Source: a bacterium (GTDB lineage Bacteria > Bacillota > Clostridia > Lachnospirales > Lachnospiraceae). Taken from it: a DNA stretch of 64,000 nucleotides. The notes below the pieces were generated by a model that saw only the letters and a list, made by a program, of their open reading frames with translations, made no database searches and was not told where the DNA came from. Positions within the stretch are counted from its first letter, which is position 1; every line of letters begins with the position of its first letter. Positions 5,545-40,767 of the stretch are shown here, piece after piece. Both the position numbers and the translations under genes were made by a program. The DNA lies in assembly GCA_023663725.1 (NCBI GenBank), contig JAMPGX010000010.1, positions 54,284 to 118,283 on the forward strand. The letters are read 5' to 3'.

Positions 5545-5700
5545 AGTCCCGAGTCCTGGGCGGGGTATATGCCCTTGCAGCGGTCGTTGTGAACCGTCGG
5601 TACTTAGCGGGCGTACTGTGCCCGCTTATGTACCGCTACGGCGAACACCGAGCGGGAGCGTGCCGCAACAAGGGCATATACCCCGCCCAGGACGAGACTT
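5545..5700. repeat. Foldback element copy A (about 155 bp)
   Basis: A perfect 23-base inverted repeat (5555-5577 with 5669-5691) encloses a 91-base interior. The interior contains GTCGGTACTTA, a GCGGGC / GCCCGC hairpin (7-base loop) and GTACCGCTACGG, then GAGCGGGAGCGTGCC. The core matches three elements at 37.4-38.4 kb, but the outer arms here are unrelated to the arms of those copies. Confidence 0.8.
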
Positions 5701-36818: not shown

Positions 36819-37328
36819 TCAGGCAAACCAGCTGAGAACCTGTTCCCCACAAAAATACCCTGCACCCACAAAAAACAGATTCCAGATAAAGATACCAATC
36901 GTAGAACAGAGAATATATTGTCCCAGCCGCATCCGAAACACTCCCGCTGGGATGGACACCAGTGTCCGTATCATGGGAATCAGCTTGGCTGCGATCAGCC
37001 CCATGCCGCCCTTCTCCTGCACCCAGGCCAGGTATTTTTCGATTCTGGGCCTCTGCTTGGGAAACTTATTCATATATTTCTCCAGGAAAAAGCGTCCGCC
37101 TGTGAGTCCCAGCACATACAATACCATGCTCCCCAGAAGGCCGGCTGTCACTGTGATGACCATCACCCACGGGAACGAGATATTGCCGCCCGCCGCCATA
37201 ATCCCTGCCAACGGCATGATGATTCCCGCCGGAAAACCGGGCAAATTCATATACTCCAGAAAGACCAGTAAAAAGATTGCGATTGCCCCATAGCGGGTAA
37301 ATATGTCCATTATTTCTGCATAGCTCAT
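36819..37328 (-). CDS. DedA family membrane protein
   Basis: The protein has 169 residues and about four to five hydrophobic segments. It shows FLEYMNLPGFPAGIIMPLAG at the start, then GLLGSMVLYVLGLTGGRFF, KLIPMIRTLVSIPAG (typical DedA R-x-x-x-x-P-A-G signature) and GYFCGEQVL. DedA proteins are implicated in lipid flipping. It is shorter than the usual about 200 residues. It lies 35 bases before the glycosyltransferase gene on the same strand. Confidence 0.88.
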   Translation of the reverse strand: MSYAEIMDIFTRYGAIAIFLLVFLEYMNLPGFPAGIIMPLAGIMAAGGNISFPWVMVITVTAGLLGSMVLYVLGLTGGRFFLEKYMNKFPKQRPRIEKYLAWVQEKGGMGLIAAKLIPMIRTLVSIPAGVFRMRLGQYILCSTIGIFIWNLFFVGAGYFCGEQVLSWFA

Positions 37329-37387
37329 TTCTTCAGCCTCCTTGCGATTCCTTTTCTCCTTCGAACTAATAGTCGATTGCGAAACCC

Positions 37388-37568
37388 GGTTACTTTGCCA
37401 GTGTCATTGTGCCCATTGCATATCCCAACGTAGGCACGCTCTCGCTCCGTTCTCACCGTAGCGGTACATAAGATGCTAAAATACAGCATCGAGGGTTGCT
37501 AGCAACCCTAGGTACCGACGGTTCGAAAGGGCCTACTTATGGAATATACAATATGCACAATTCGGTAC
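37388..37568. repeat. Foldback element copy B
   Basis: Outer arms TTGTGCCCATTGCATATCCC and ATTGTATATTCC-type sequence pair imperfectly. The core GTAGCGGTACATAAG, a GATGCT/AGCATC hairpin and a GGGTTGCTAGCAACCC palindrome, then GTACCGACGG, follow. GATTGCGAAAC at the left flank and GTTTCGCAAG at the right may be outer ends. Confidence 0.75.
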
Positions 37569-37902
37569 TGATAAAATCAGAGTTTCGCAAGCACCTATTC
37601 GAACTAACTTGCACATTATCCGTTTATCAGCTTAAAAACAGTATATGTTTCGCTTCTGAAGTTTTCTGGCAGGGAAAACCAAAGAATTTCTAAAGAAAGA
37701 GCAAAGATAAGGAGAAGCGCTTACAAGCGTATATGTATTCTTAAACGTTTGTTAAACAAATCTTAAACGCATCTATCTTGCTATTCACCGTCCAATTCCA
37801 TATACTATTTTTATCTCTATAAACCCTGTACAGGCTATGTTGAGGGTAGCTATAAGACCGATTAACATCTGAACAATTAAAGATGGGCATATGCAATACT
37901 TA
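37569..37902. other. AT-rich gap between foldback elements B and C
   Basis: No gene, terminator or convincing promoter was found in this 334-base stretch. Short open frames here lack ribosome sites. Confidence 0.6.
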
Positions 37903-38104
37903 GTTACTATGCCAGTGTCATGGTGCACATTGTACATTCCAACGCAGGCACGCTCTCGCTTCGTTCTCACCGTAGCGGTACTAAGCTCGTGCCGAATGAA
38001 TTCGGCAAACCTCGCTAAGTACCGACGGCTCGTGGTGTTACGGTTGCAAACCGTAACACGAAGCCTGCTTTTGGAATATACAATATACACCATTCGATAT
38101 TGAT
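37903..38104. repeat. Foldback element copy C
   Basis: Same orientation as copy B. Arms GTGCACATTGTACATTCC and GGAATATACAATATACACC are imperfectly complementary. Core GTAGCGGTACTAAG is followed by a GCCGAA/TTCGGC hairpin and GTACCGACGG. An extra perfect hairpin, GTGTTACGGTT with AACCGTAACAC (38036-38060), is inserted in one arm. Confidence 0.75.
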
Positions 38105-38136
38105 AAAAAACTGTTTATAAACCCTTTATAAGTTAG

Positions 38137-38203
38137 TATAGCCAATTGTGAAACCTTGTCCGCAAATAATAGAATTGATCAATATAGACAATTGTAAAAC
38201 CTT
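38137..38203. repeat. Two 21-base direct repeats
   Basis: TATAGCCAATTGTGAAACCTT at 38137-38157 recurs at 38183-38203 with two changes (18 bases are identical in one block pair around AATTGT). They lie between foldback copies C and D, upstream of the solute-binding protein gene. Confidence 0.6.
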
Positions 38204-38212
38204 CTTTTTCCA

Positions 38213-38373
38213 GTACCGAATTGTGTACATTGTATATTCCAAAAGCAGGCTCTTTCGAACTGTCGGTACTTAGATGCTGTTTTTTAGCATCTTATGTACC
38301 GCTACAGTGAGAACGAAGCGAGAGCGTGCCTGCGTTGGAATATACAATGTACACAATGACACTAGCAAAGTAC
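38213..38373. repeat. Foldback element copy D
   Basis: A perfect 22-base arm pair (38221-38242 with 38335-38356) encloses GTCGGTACTTA, an AGATGCT/AGCATCT hairpin with a T-rich loop, and CTTATGTACCGCTACAG followed by GAGAACGAAGCGAGAGCG. The orientation is opposite to copies B and C. It ends 52 bases before the start of the solute-binding protein gene. Confidence 0.85.
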
Positions 38374-38424
38374 CTGGCTTTCGCAAACGTCTAACAATAA
38401 GGCAATATGAAAGGAGAATTCAAA

Positions 38425-40767
38425 ATGAAACGCAACTGCAAAAAGCGTTACAGGTGTCTCAGCATTCTGTTGTTTATCACCCTCTTTCTCACAGGATGCG
38501 GAAATGGCTCCGCAGACAGCACCGGAGAAGAGTCCGCCCCTGAAGCGGCTCCTGCGATATCTGTGGATTGGAGCTCATATCAAATCACTCCTCCGCAAAC
38601 TGCCAAAACAGGTGATCAATGGTTTGTGACAGAATATCATGACGACTGGATTGCCCCATGTGAGCGGGAGTATGATACTTCTTACAGGCTGAATCCCCAG
38701 ACCTTCAATGGCGTTATTTACTATTGGACCTCCTATAGAAAGGGCGATCAGGCTTGGAGCTATATGGACTGTTTCGATTCACAGACAGGGCAGAGCCTTC
38801 AGGTGGAGCTTGATTTTCAGGAGCCCCAGAATACATTTTTCAAGGATATGACGATGGCGGGTGATAAGCTGGCAGCATTTCTCGCCTGCAGTCGCCAGAC
38901 GGAATCCGACACTCCGCTCTGTGCCTGTTCTCTTATCTACTATCACTTGGAGAACGGCGTACAGAAAACACTGGATCTGCTGCCGGCCCTGGCCGATGTG
39001 GGAATAACCAAATTACCTGACGCCTTTCAGGACCACACTAAGAGAAGTATCCTATGCGATTCAAAAGGTTGCGTTTATCTGATCTGGGAAAATTCTTTGG
39101 TCGTTGTAAGCGAAACCGGAGAACTGCTCTGCTATATGGAGTCTGCGGACAATGTCTCTCTGTCCTGCCTGTGTGATTTTCCGGACGGTTTCCCGATGTT
39201 TGTCCGCGAGGATAAAAACAACCGCACCAGCACTTATCTGGTCTATGACCATGACGCCAAAGAGATGCGTTCTCTGGGTGAATCCAAAAAAATTGTGATG
39301 AAATACGCCTGTATGGACCGCGCCGGAAATCTGTATTTTTTCACGGACATCAATCAGACAGACAACAATATTGTCAGATGGGATACCTTGTCAGGGAACC
39401 GTGAGAAAATCTTTGACTGTAAGGCAAATAGCATCTGTAATAACACGATGTCCTACAAAGCCATGACAATCCGGGAAAACGGCGATCTGGTAATCATGGA
39501 CCCTGTCTCTGAACACAGGAATATATATGTATTATCTCCCAGACAGCCGGAGACGGAGAGAACACTGACCCTTGTATCGACCAGCTACTCCAGCCAGCTG
39601 GAGAAGACAGCCGCCATCCTGTTTACCCAGCAGCATCCTGAAGTAAAGATAGACTATACCTGCATCACGGAGAACGATGACTGGGCGGCATATGTTAACA
39701 CCCTGCTTAACCGCATCGTAACCGGCGACGCTCCAGATATGTTCATAATCCCTGTTGACGTCATGCAAACCCTGTATGAAAAGGGCGCTCTGGCGGAGCT
39801 GACGGATATCATACCAGCGGATATCCGTAATCAGGTATTTGACAGTGTCTGGGAGGCGGGAACTGTCGATGGCAAGCTGGTGGGACTCACTACTCAAATT
39901 AGCGCCTCCAGCATGTTGGTTTCAAAAGAACTCTGGCCTGAAGAGACCTGGACACTGGAAGACATTCTGACTTTGGCAGAAAATGCGCCGCAAGGGACAC
40001 TGAAGGGGCTGATTCCTCTAAAGTGGAACATTCCCCTTCCGGAGCTCGCGCTGCATGCGCTAACTCTTAAAACGATTAACTCCTCCCTCGTGGACCTGGA
40101 AGCCGGCACCTGCAATTTTGACTGTGATGCATTCCGAAAGGTACTGCAATACTGCAAGGACACTCCCATCCCAGAGCGCAATCCCGATATCGCGAATCCT
40201 GTTCCAGCCCGTGAGGTTATGAATGGAGAGTATCTGGCCGATGCCTGTGAGATATTTGATTTTCCTATGTTTTGCACACAGATGTCACTGTATTCAGAGG
40301 ATTATCATTGGGTAGGCTATCCTACCGACAAGGGGAACGGCAATCTAATATACGCAGATTCCTTCTTGGCTGTCAGCAAGGACACGCAAAATATGGATCT
40401 GATCCAAGAATTTTTGCCCACACTTTACAGTGAAAGGCTGGAAAGCCTGTATCCCGACAGATGTGTGCGCAGGGATGTGCTCCGAAAACGCGTGGTAGAG
40501 CGCTCGTCCAATCCCGACGAAGGCGTAGCCTACTATATGGGAGAAGGCTCCTACCGAATCCTGGAGGGCAAACCCGACGGTACTTCCTATGTGGAGGATT
40601 ATATAGAATTCATAGACAACTGCACGATGCCGGAGTCTGAAAGCGGCCAGATTTCCCGCATTGTGTTAGAAGAGGCTTCCGCTTATTTCTCCGGTGATAA
40701 GGATATAGATACTGTCATATCGATTATTCAGAATCGGGTCCAGCTGTATCTGGATGAGAACAAATGA
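38425..40767 (+). CDS. ABC-type solute-binding lipoprotein
   Basis: The protein has 780 residues. A signal sequence ends at the lipobox LTGC (Cys25). Residues up to about 375 form a beta-rich part with regular DTPLCACS-type strands, like a propeller. From about 375 a family 1 extracellular solute-binding domain follows (TLVSTSYSSQLEKTAAIL, AYVNTLLNRIVTGDAPDM, GKLVGLTTQ). The substrate is unknown; sugar uptake is common in this family. The ATG at 38425 follows AAAGGAG; the one at 38407 is earlier but has no ribosome site. No permease or ATPase gene is adjacent. Confidence 0.8.
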   Translation: MKRNCKKRYRCLSILLFITLFLTGCGNGSADSTGEESAPEAAPAISVDWSSYQITPPQTAKTGDQWFVTEYHDDWIAPCEREYDTSYRLNPQTFNGVIYYWTSYRKGDQAWSYMDCFDSQTGQSLQVELDFQEPQNTFFKDMTMAGDKLAAFLACSRQTESDTPLCACSLIYYHLENGVQKTLDLLPALADVGITKLPDAFQDHTKRSILCDSKGCVYLIWENSLVVVSETGELLCYMESADNVSLSCLCDFPDGFPMFVREDKNNRTSTYLVYDHDAKEMRSLGESKKIVMKYACMDRAGNLYFFTDINQTDNNIVRWDTLSGNREKIFDCKANSICNNTMSYKAMTIRENGDLVIMDPVSEHRNIYVLSPRQPETERTLTLVSTSYSSQLEKTAAILFTQQHPEVKIDYTCITENDDWAAYVNTLLNRIVTGDAPDMFIIPVDVMQTLYEKGALAELTDIIPADIRNQVFDSVWEAGTVDGKLVGLTTQISASSMLVSKELWPEETWTLEDILTLAENAPQGTLKGLIPLKWNIPLPELALHALTLKTINSSLVDLEAGTCNFDCDAFRKVLQYCKDTPIPERNPDIANPVPAREVMNGEYLADACEIFDFPMFCTQMSLYSEDYHWVGYPTDKGNGNLIYADSFLAVSKDTQNMDLIQEFLPTLYSERLESLYPDRCVRRDVLRKRVVERSSNPDEGVAYYMGEGSYRILEGKPDGTSYVEDYIEFIDNCTMPESESGQISRIVLEEASAYFSGDKDIDTVISIIQNRVQLYLDENK

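Follow-up and report, generated by a model that had tools for sequence, protein, structure and literature searches.

What keeps a cluster of inverted repeats so well paired, and how did it come to lie between two genes? The question is raised by three copies (B, C and D) of one repeat at 37.3-38.4 kb of the window, i.e. the whole stretch of 64,000 nucleotides of a Lachnospiraceae genome that was analysed. A first-pass annotation made from the sequence alone proposed a structured RNA, a cruciform or a mobile foldback element. The three copies lie at the positions that it gave, with D indeed inverted relative to B and C. The reading favoured here, to which we give a probability of roughly 0.55, is that a folded-DNA core has spread in this genome as a MITE, so that a vehicle and a separate cargo are superimposed.

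The repeat is distinct at the level of short words. The 19-mer GTTCTCACCGTAGCGGTAC has four matches at up to three mismatches in the 64 kb (mean of 0.01 in shuffles), being exact in B and C and carrying one change in D (CACTG for CACCG). The 14-mer GGCACGCTCTCGCT has three exact matches in the 64 kb, while its matches at three mismatches are not above chance there (8 versus 5.4 expected). The sequence blocks said to be shared by all three copies are found in B and C, but in D GTACCGACGG is replaced by GTACCGACAG. The GACAG of D finds its partner in the CTGT of the same copy, so that one change compensates for the other, and the description of GTACCGACGG as shared was therefore slightly wrong for D. 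The annotation gives the inner hairpins correctly (GATGCT/AGCATC for B and D, GCCGAA/TTCGGC for C), and the outer arm of D is perfect over 23 bp (22 in the annotation). Copy B harbors an extra hairpin, GGGTTGCTAGCAACCC, and copy C another one, GTGTTACGGTTGCAAACCGTAACAC. All three copies fold far better than their shuffles (z of -6.1, -7.5 and -9.0, with 0 of 200 shuffles folding as well). Both terminal inverted repeats (TIRs) of the insertion sequence (IS) type described below are present in B and D. The ends of C are decayed, without a clear TIR pair by eye, and no IS1182-type TIR is seen in copy A, whose outer arms differ from those of the other copies and yet pair. To note, the remnant located between C and D looks, by eye, like another MITE type of the same genome.

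Features of the window around copies A to D (positions are those of the window)
Feature	Positions	Strand	Remarks
Copy A, same core, unrelated outer arms	5568..5682	-	covariance-model match
VTT-domain gene facing the 5' end of copy B	36819..37328	-	start codon 41 nt from the B TIR
Left target-site duplication of copy B, TTCGAACTAA	37360..37369	.	
Copy B, complete 228-bp MITE	37370..37597	+	TIR TAGTCGATTGCGAAA ... TTTCGCAAGCACCTA
Copy B folded core	37415..37546	+	covariance-model match, G000 C1:91698-91829 minus 54283
Right target-site duplication of copy B, TTCGAACTAA	37598..37607	.	
Copy C folded core	37929..38051	+	covariance-model match, C1:92212-92334
Remnant between C and D	38139..38184	+	opens with the same TIR motif, TAGCCAATTGTGAAACC; by eye
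Copy D, 209-bp MITE	38185..38393	-	both TIRs, TAGACGTTTGCGAAA and TAGACAATTGTAAAA
Copy D folded core	38235..38348	-	covariance-model match, C1:92518-92631
Solute-binding protein domain gene facing the 5' end of copy D	38425..40767	+	

The search for further copies that the annotation had recommended is positive in the genome itself and in its relatives. BLAST with copy B reaches at least 53 places in its own genome, and a covariance model built from 11 copies yields 108 matches, 107 of which are kept after removal of the antisense echo of C47:68032; these copy numbers are lower bounds, since only part of the first-look candidates was scored. The inner hairpins are interchangeable among copies (a GATGC type, a GTGCCGAAT type, and extra GGGTTGCTAGCAACCC and GTGTTACGG modules). 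In one subclass the entire lower stem is swapped and still pairs (GTGAAAAACGT/ACGTTTTTCA for GTTCTCACCGT/ACGGTTCGAA). A further module is found at L051/L176 (G000 C29:17544), where the TAA internal loop next to P4 of one copy has taken up a hairpin of ~100 nt.

The vehicle can be recognized from its ends. Both TIRs, of the type TAGRCRNTTGCGAAA, are located at the expected distance in 89 of the 107 copies, and 77 of these 89 measure 198-247 bp (range 121-277). Of the 89 copies with both TIRs, 22 are flanked by a direct repeat of 10-14 bp that can still be read (the other 18 of the 107 were left out of this test), as compared to a mean of 0.06 and a maximum of 1 in 200 shuffles of the flanks. 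It is not found in the remaining 67, D included, for which the flank comparison gives no duplication with 8 or more matched bases. Copy B is flanked on both sides by the same 10 bp, TTCGAACTAA. The annotation had overlooked the TIRs, this duplication and the ~100 further copies in the genome, but its suggestion of a mobile foldback element is borne out by them (TIRs in 89/107 copies, a readable duplication in 22/89). It had also stated that no transposase is present, which is correct for the cluster and incorrect genome-wide: an IS at C44, whose other end falls at the contig edge, encodes a matching transposase of 485 amino acids (Pfam DUF772) and carries the TIR TAGGCGTTTGCGAAAC. Its best NCBIfam match is IS1182, at 78 bits for a cut-off of 270, and the family name is therefore tentative. 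Homologous ISs in two other genera (L438 and L439) have the same TIR and a 12-bp target duplication, with protein identities of 86% and 68%. Six contigs of the assembly end within 54 bases of the start of such a TIR, as expected when a repeat breaks an assembly. Judged by these ends, most copies of this genome are non-autonomous transposons bounded by IS1182-like TIRs, presumably moved by the IS1182-like transposase, and their insertion duplicates about 12 bp of target. We hold with high confidence that B and D belong to them as MITEs of the resident IS. The TIR, target duplication and vehicle of the window copies are those of IS1182-family MITEs; the core, by contrast, does not belong to the IS. 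By eye, shorter MITE-like elements with the same TIR are found at L049, L050, L051 (410-650), L057, L060, L061 and L073, with unrelated hairpins such as GGGCAATATATACAAAA...TTTTGTATATATTGACC. Another short repeat, unlike these (GTACTGTACC... / ...GGTACAGTAC), is found nested within one MITE (L056) and next to a second one (left flank of L053).

These elements land in a particular place. With gene starts assigned heuristically and the TIR position taken as nominal, 70 of the 106 copies that have a neighbouring gene on their 5' side turn this end towards its start codon, at a distance of 25-37 nt in 40 of the 70 and of at most 60 nt in 50. A Shine-Dalgarno-like hexamer begins 11-20 nt past the 5' TIR in 42 of 88 copies, versus 14 of 81 at that distance past the 3' TIR and 1.9% of random positions. 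Three of the four ISs with a TIR-like left end (L437, L438 and L439 among the four) likewise adjoin the Shine-Dalgarno sequence of a gene, and the fourth sits inside the end of another IS. About half of the copies have their 5' end 13-20 nt upstream of a Shine-Dalgarno-like sequence, and this landing places inverted copies on both sides of divergent gene pairs. Of 23 close pairs of copies in the genome, 16 are plus-then-minus, five minus-minus, two plus-plus and none minus-then-plus. The window follows this layout, as the 5' ends of B and D are each aimed at the start of a divergent gene, and the AAAGGAG of the solute-binding protein domain gene starts 16 nt past the TIR of D. A crude test, with the origin assumed at position 1, gives no replichore bias in two genomes. 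The comparison of an empty site (L147, in the genome of the window) with L114 in G006 met intergenic sequence too diverged for the edges to be placed.

The cargo is a core of about 110 nt. From the 5' side it reads arm, ACGCTNTCGCT, NN, P2, CGTAG, CGGTAC, (A)TAA and P4 with its loop AAAATAC, and its 3' half after P4 comprises TAA, GTACCG, ACG, P2', A, NN and the returning arm'. An alignment of 81 sequences from other genomes (A4; median identity 57%) includes 28 same-genus loci and 45 later-added loci of other genera or species. In this alignment, which is fitted to the covariance model and leans towards structure, seven helices hold: 95.1% of the cells are paired and 33 of the 34 pairs change two-sidedly somewhere. 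The two-sided cells number 743, versus 187.9 +- 12.5 after shuffling, with a covariation score of 0.714 versus 0.185, and the covariation is lost when partners are slid by 1-3 columns. The covariation of the hairpin, for which the annotation had asked for a test, is overwhelming, and its conserved core with covarying stems is supported across genomes. Thirteen unpaired positions are 94-100% conserved (C27, T30, C33, T36, A54, T64, A65, A74, A77, C81, A117, A118 and A137), while over all columns the mean top frequency of unpaired positions (0.685) is no higher than that of paired ones (0.684). The first four of these positions surround a two-pair mini-hairpin, A54 (followed by G55 at 81%) lies in the bulge of CGTAGCGG, T64 and A65 stand opposite A117 and A118, and A74, A77 and C81 belong to the top loop. 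Of 77 short top loops, 66 are rich in A and have AC at their end. The outer arms, which are partly inside the model, have a median of 31 paired positions, versus 8 when arms of different copies are confronted.

This core reaches well beyond the genome of the window. With a first model it is detected in 24 of the 37 genus members (own genome included) and in 0 of 24 genomes from other families. A second one (38 diverse sequences, 113 positions, two of 40 matches being left out by a stricter E-value) finds it in 93 of 200 sampled Lachnospiraceae genomes, i.e. in 92 of 199 genera, all of these being counts for which only part of the first-look candidates was scored. An order-wide sample, in which the family of unlisted genomes is taken from the listing order, has the core in 30 of its 48 members of the family and in one of the 247 genomes from outside, the latter being marginal (E 9e-4), again with part of the first-look candidates scored. 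The family is identified by record titles: among the matches listed of an exact-pattern scan, most are labelled Lachnospiraceae; Acetatifactor, Lachnospira, Kineothrix and Herbinix labels also occur, as do a few others on metagenome bins. Two exact patterns have no match in viral contigs, nor copy B in phage and plasmid records, both searches reaching close relatives only. In other species and genera the core is kept with other arms and with another TIR or none; the outer arms differ between species and, in G260, also between copies. At the sequence level, this comparison shows the core to be independent of its transposon vehicle. Rfam yields no match above the gathering threshold in the window. 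Sub-threshold hits are C0299 over the core of D (23.3 bits versus 40, E 0.93; four loci, to E 10) and MIR162_2 over the hairpin of L126 (33.1 versus 103; 20 loci, to E 0.1). The open literature searched holds no recognized description of the element. We conclude with high confidence that the core is a structured element, absent from Rfam, that has spread through the family. Tandem arrays of the core are also found, at L346 (G170 C21) and L340, with periods of 187 nt and 138 nt. The G170 copies have common arms and start at AGGACG; in some of them a further inverted repeat, GTCAATTTGCAC, lies on the outside.

A new structured RNA, either a mobile 5'- or 3'-UTR element or a ncRNA, spread by transposition and with its hairpin acting in the transcript, would also be in keeping with the covariation and with the near-invariant unpaired bases. 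This is the competitor that survives best, although we consider it unlikely. Selection at the RNA level should leave more G·U than A·C on the RNA strand. The helices seldom wobble, and across genomes neither strand displays a clear G·U excess: the G·U:A·C ratio is 45:29 of 2710 cells in A4 by model alignment, which leans to G·U, with 14 of the 45 in one column pair, and 58:79 of 2892 in the outer arms. Alignment by MAFFT plus RNAalifold gives 72:70 of 2733, and 80:63 when the opposite strand is folded. The same method applied to riboswitches of 28 family genomes (2/30 TPP loci and 2/30 FMN loci being removed as short, at contig ends) gives 44:4 of 334 for TPP (12 pairs only) and 9:0 of 672 for FMN, with 23:9 on the FMN antisense strand. 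As the method leans to G·U even on the wrong strand, the balance of the element is the more telling. Copies located between tandem genes in other genomes are 30 sense and 26 antisense; a further 15 lie between convergent genes, two between divergent ones, and eight have a neighbour missing. A structured RNA is not supported as the favoured reading by these two results, the helices lacking the one-strand G·U excess seen in the riboswitches of the family and the tandem-gene copies being about equally sense and antisense.

Some observations nevertheless lean towards RNA. In the own genome the model alignment (A5) gives 34:69 of 3118 cells. Read on the opposite strand of the core, this A·C excess becomes one of G·U, and that strand would be in the leader, given that 50 of the 70 start-facing copies lie within 60 nt of the start. 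The excess could also come from strand-biased deamination of leaders. As for the placement itself, it is common to the IS and, by eye, to further MITEs sharing these ends, and this speaks for a choice of target. Nearest copies of the own genome, taken separately, give an A·C:G·U ratio of 54:24, as in the A5 excess. In other genomes a stop codon lies at most 60 nt from the 5' side in 39 cases and from the 3' side in 16, an imbalance that indicates some polarity relative to transcription. Taken together, the wobble counts show that something strand-blind keeps the helices; template switching alone would suffice for this, and an RNA function could coexist. In its behaviour the element is closer to a folded DNA signal than to an RNA; this is the best reading, with RNA function and repair by-product, counted jointly, being about as probable. 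Among the options of the annotation, the cruciform is supported as one possibility besides mobility.

Could the palindromes be kept perfect solely by template-switch repair, without any function, the covariation being a mutational by-product? In 37 pairs of copies that differ by less than 3%, two-sided changes already make up 6 of the 20 at paired sites, and the available text of PMC8794818 ascribes both compensatory changes and loop inversion in hairpins to template switching. Nearest copies of the own genome display 52 two-sided and 113 one-sided changes at paired sites. However, none of the 77 short top loops is inverted, and specific bulges and loops are left untouched, with the 13 unpaired positions conserved at 94-100% in sequences of 57% median identity. 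Template switching may homogenize the outer arms; it does not explain why these particular bulges and loops are spared, and as the whole account it seems improbable to us. An origin of the outer arms as inverted duplications of the end of the neighbouring gene was rejected: a few arms do run into the adjoining gene, but the signal is near chance level (4 of 36 loci with p <0.05, one with p <0.01). Finally, that there is nothing but a large MITE family of one IS holds for the vehicle, with its TIRs, target duplications and co-resident IS. As an account of the whole family this reading is very improbable and already contradicted, given that other genera have the core without these TIRs and that its presence is independent of the IS1182-like transposase, which was rejected as a general mover (17/93 element genomes versus 16/107 others, p 0.57).

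Y1 transposases read REP hairpins, and IntI reads attC. By analogy, the folded-DNA core that we favour would work as a hairpin on single-stranded DNA or as a cruciform, recognized through its near-invariant unpaired bases by a putative chromosomally encoded protein. The long arms would supply stability and may themselves be homogenized by template switching. A cellular function of the core is, for its part, something that we only infer. Whether the core founds a new class of folded-DNA signal is a tentative proposal, which we place slightly below even odds. Such a class would be inherited on the chromosomes of Lachnospiraceae, stay strictly Watson-Crick on both strands, be read by a putative chromosomal protein through about a dozen near-invariant unpaired bases, and hitch-hike on different transposon ends, including those of an IS that lands upstream of Shine-Dalgarno sequences. 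A trans-acting gene beside the copies was searched for among 650 ORFs within 500 nt of 226 loci and the idea was rejected, the largest cluster covering 7 loci (ABC-F-like by eye) and four more covering 3.

Several known systems share some of these traits. The NEMIS/Correia elements of Neisseria are MITEs with long hairpins near genes and are RNase III targets in mRNA. The present element resembles them as a MITE with a long hairpin near genes; to our knowledge they have no conserved bulged core of its type. REP/BIME sequences, in the available text of PMC3733652, are high-copy intergenic palindromes often found as inverted pairs. REPs are 20-40 bp long and fall into GTAG and CGTC super-families. 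The element is alike in its high copy number, its intergenic palindromes and its inverted pairs, in lying mostly outside divergent regions in other genomes, and in the GGACG foot (CGTC on the other strand) that flanks the hairpin in G170. It differs by its size (113 model positions plus arms), by its conserved multi-bulge interior and by its lack of RAYT association. Indeed, Y1_Tnp is absent from the own genome, and RAYT/Y1-driven mobility was rejected, the domain being present in 51/93 element genomes versus 64/107 others (p 0.57). Eubacterium, Roseburia and Clostridium each have 0 occurrences in the main text of PMC3733652. BOX elements, described from streptococci (Streptococcus pneumoniae) in the available text of PMC3049150, are similar by description: they are structured repeats, interspersed and modular, into which internal modules can be inserted, and their TIR is compared with the one of a resident IS. 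The main text of that paper uses the word "covariation" 0 times.

The element is an abundant, Rfam-absent feature of a major gut family, occurring in roughly half the genera sampled and at up to ~100 copies per genome. Compensatory changes are commonly regarded as proving an RNA, and the wobble comparison provides a cheap means of distinguishing a conserved hairpin of DNA from one of RNA. Should the core have a protein that reads it, this would represent a new hairpin-recognition system; if none does, the core would be a striking case of natural covariation without RNA. The choice of ribosome-binding sites as targets by the IS1182-like IS and its MITEs would be a separate finding. As for individual sites, copies at L182, L203 and L266, in different genomes, adjoin the same gene, jag-like by eye; those at L182 and L203 stand in opposite orientation, as at a hot spot or an old site.
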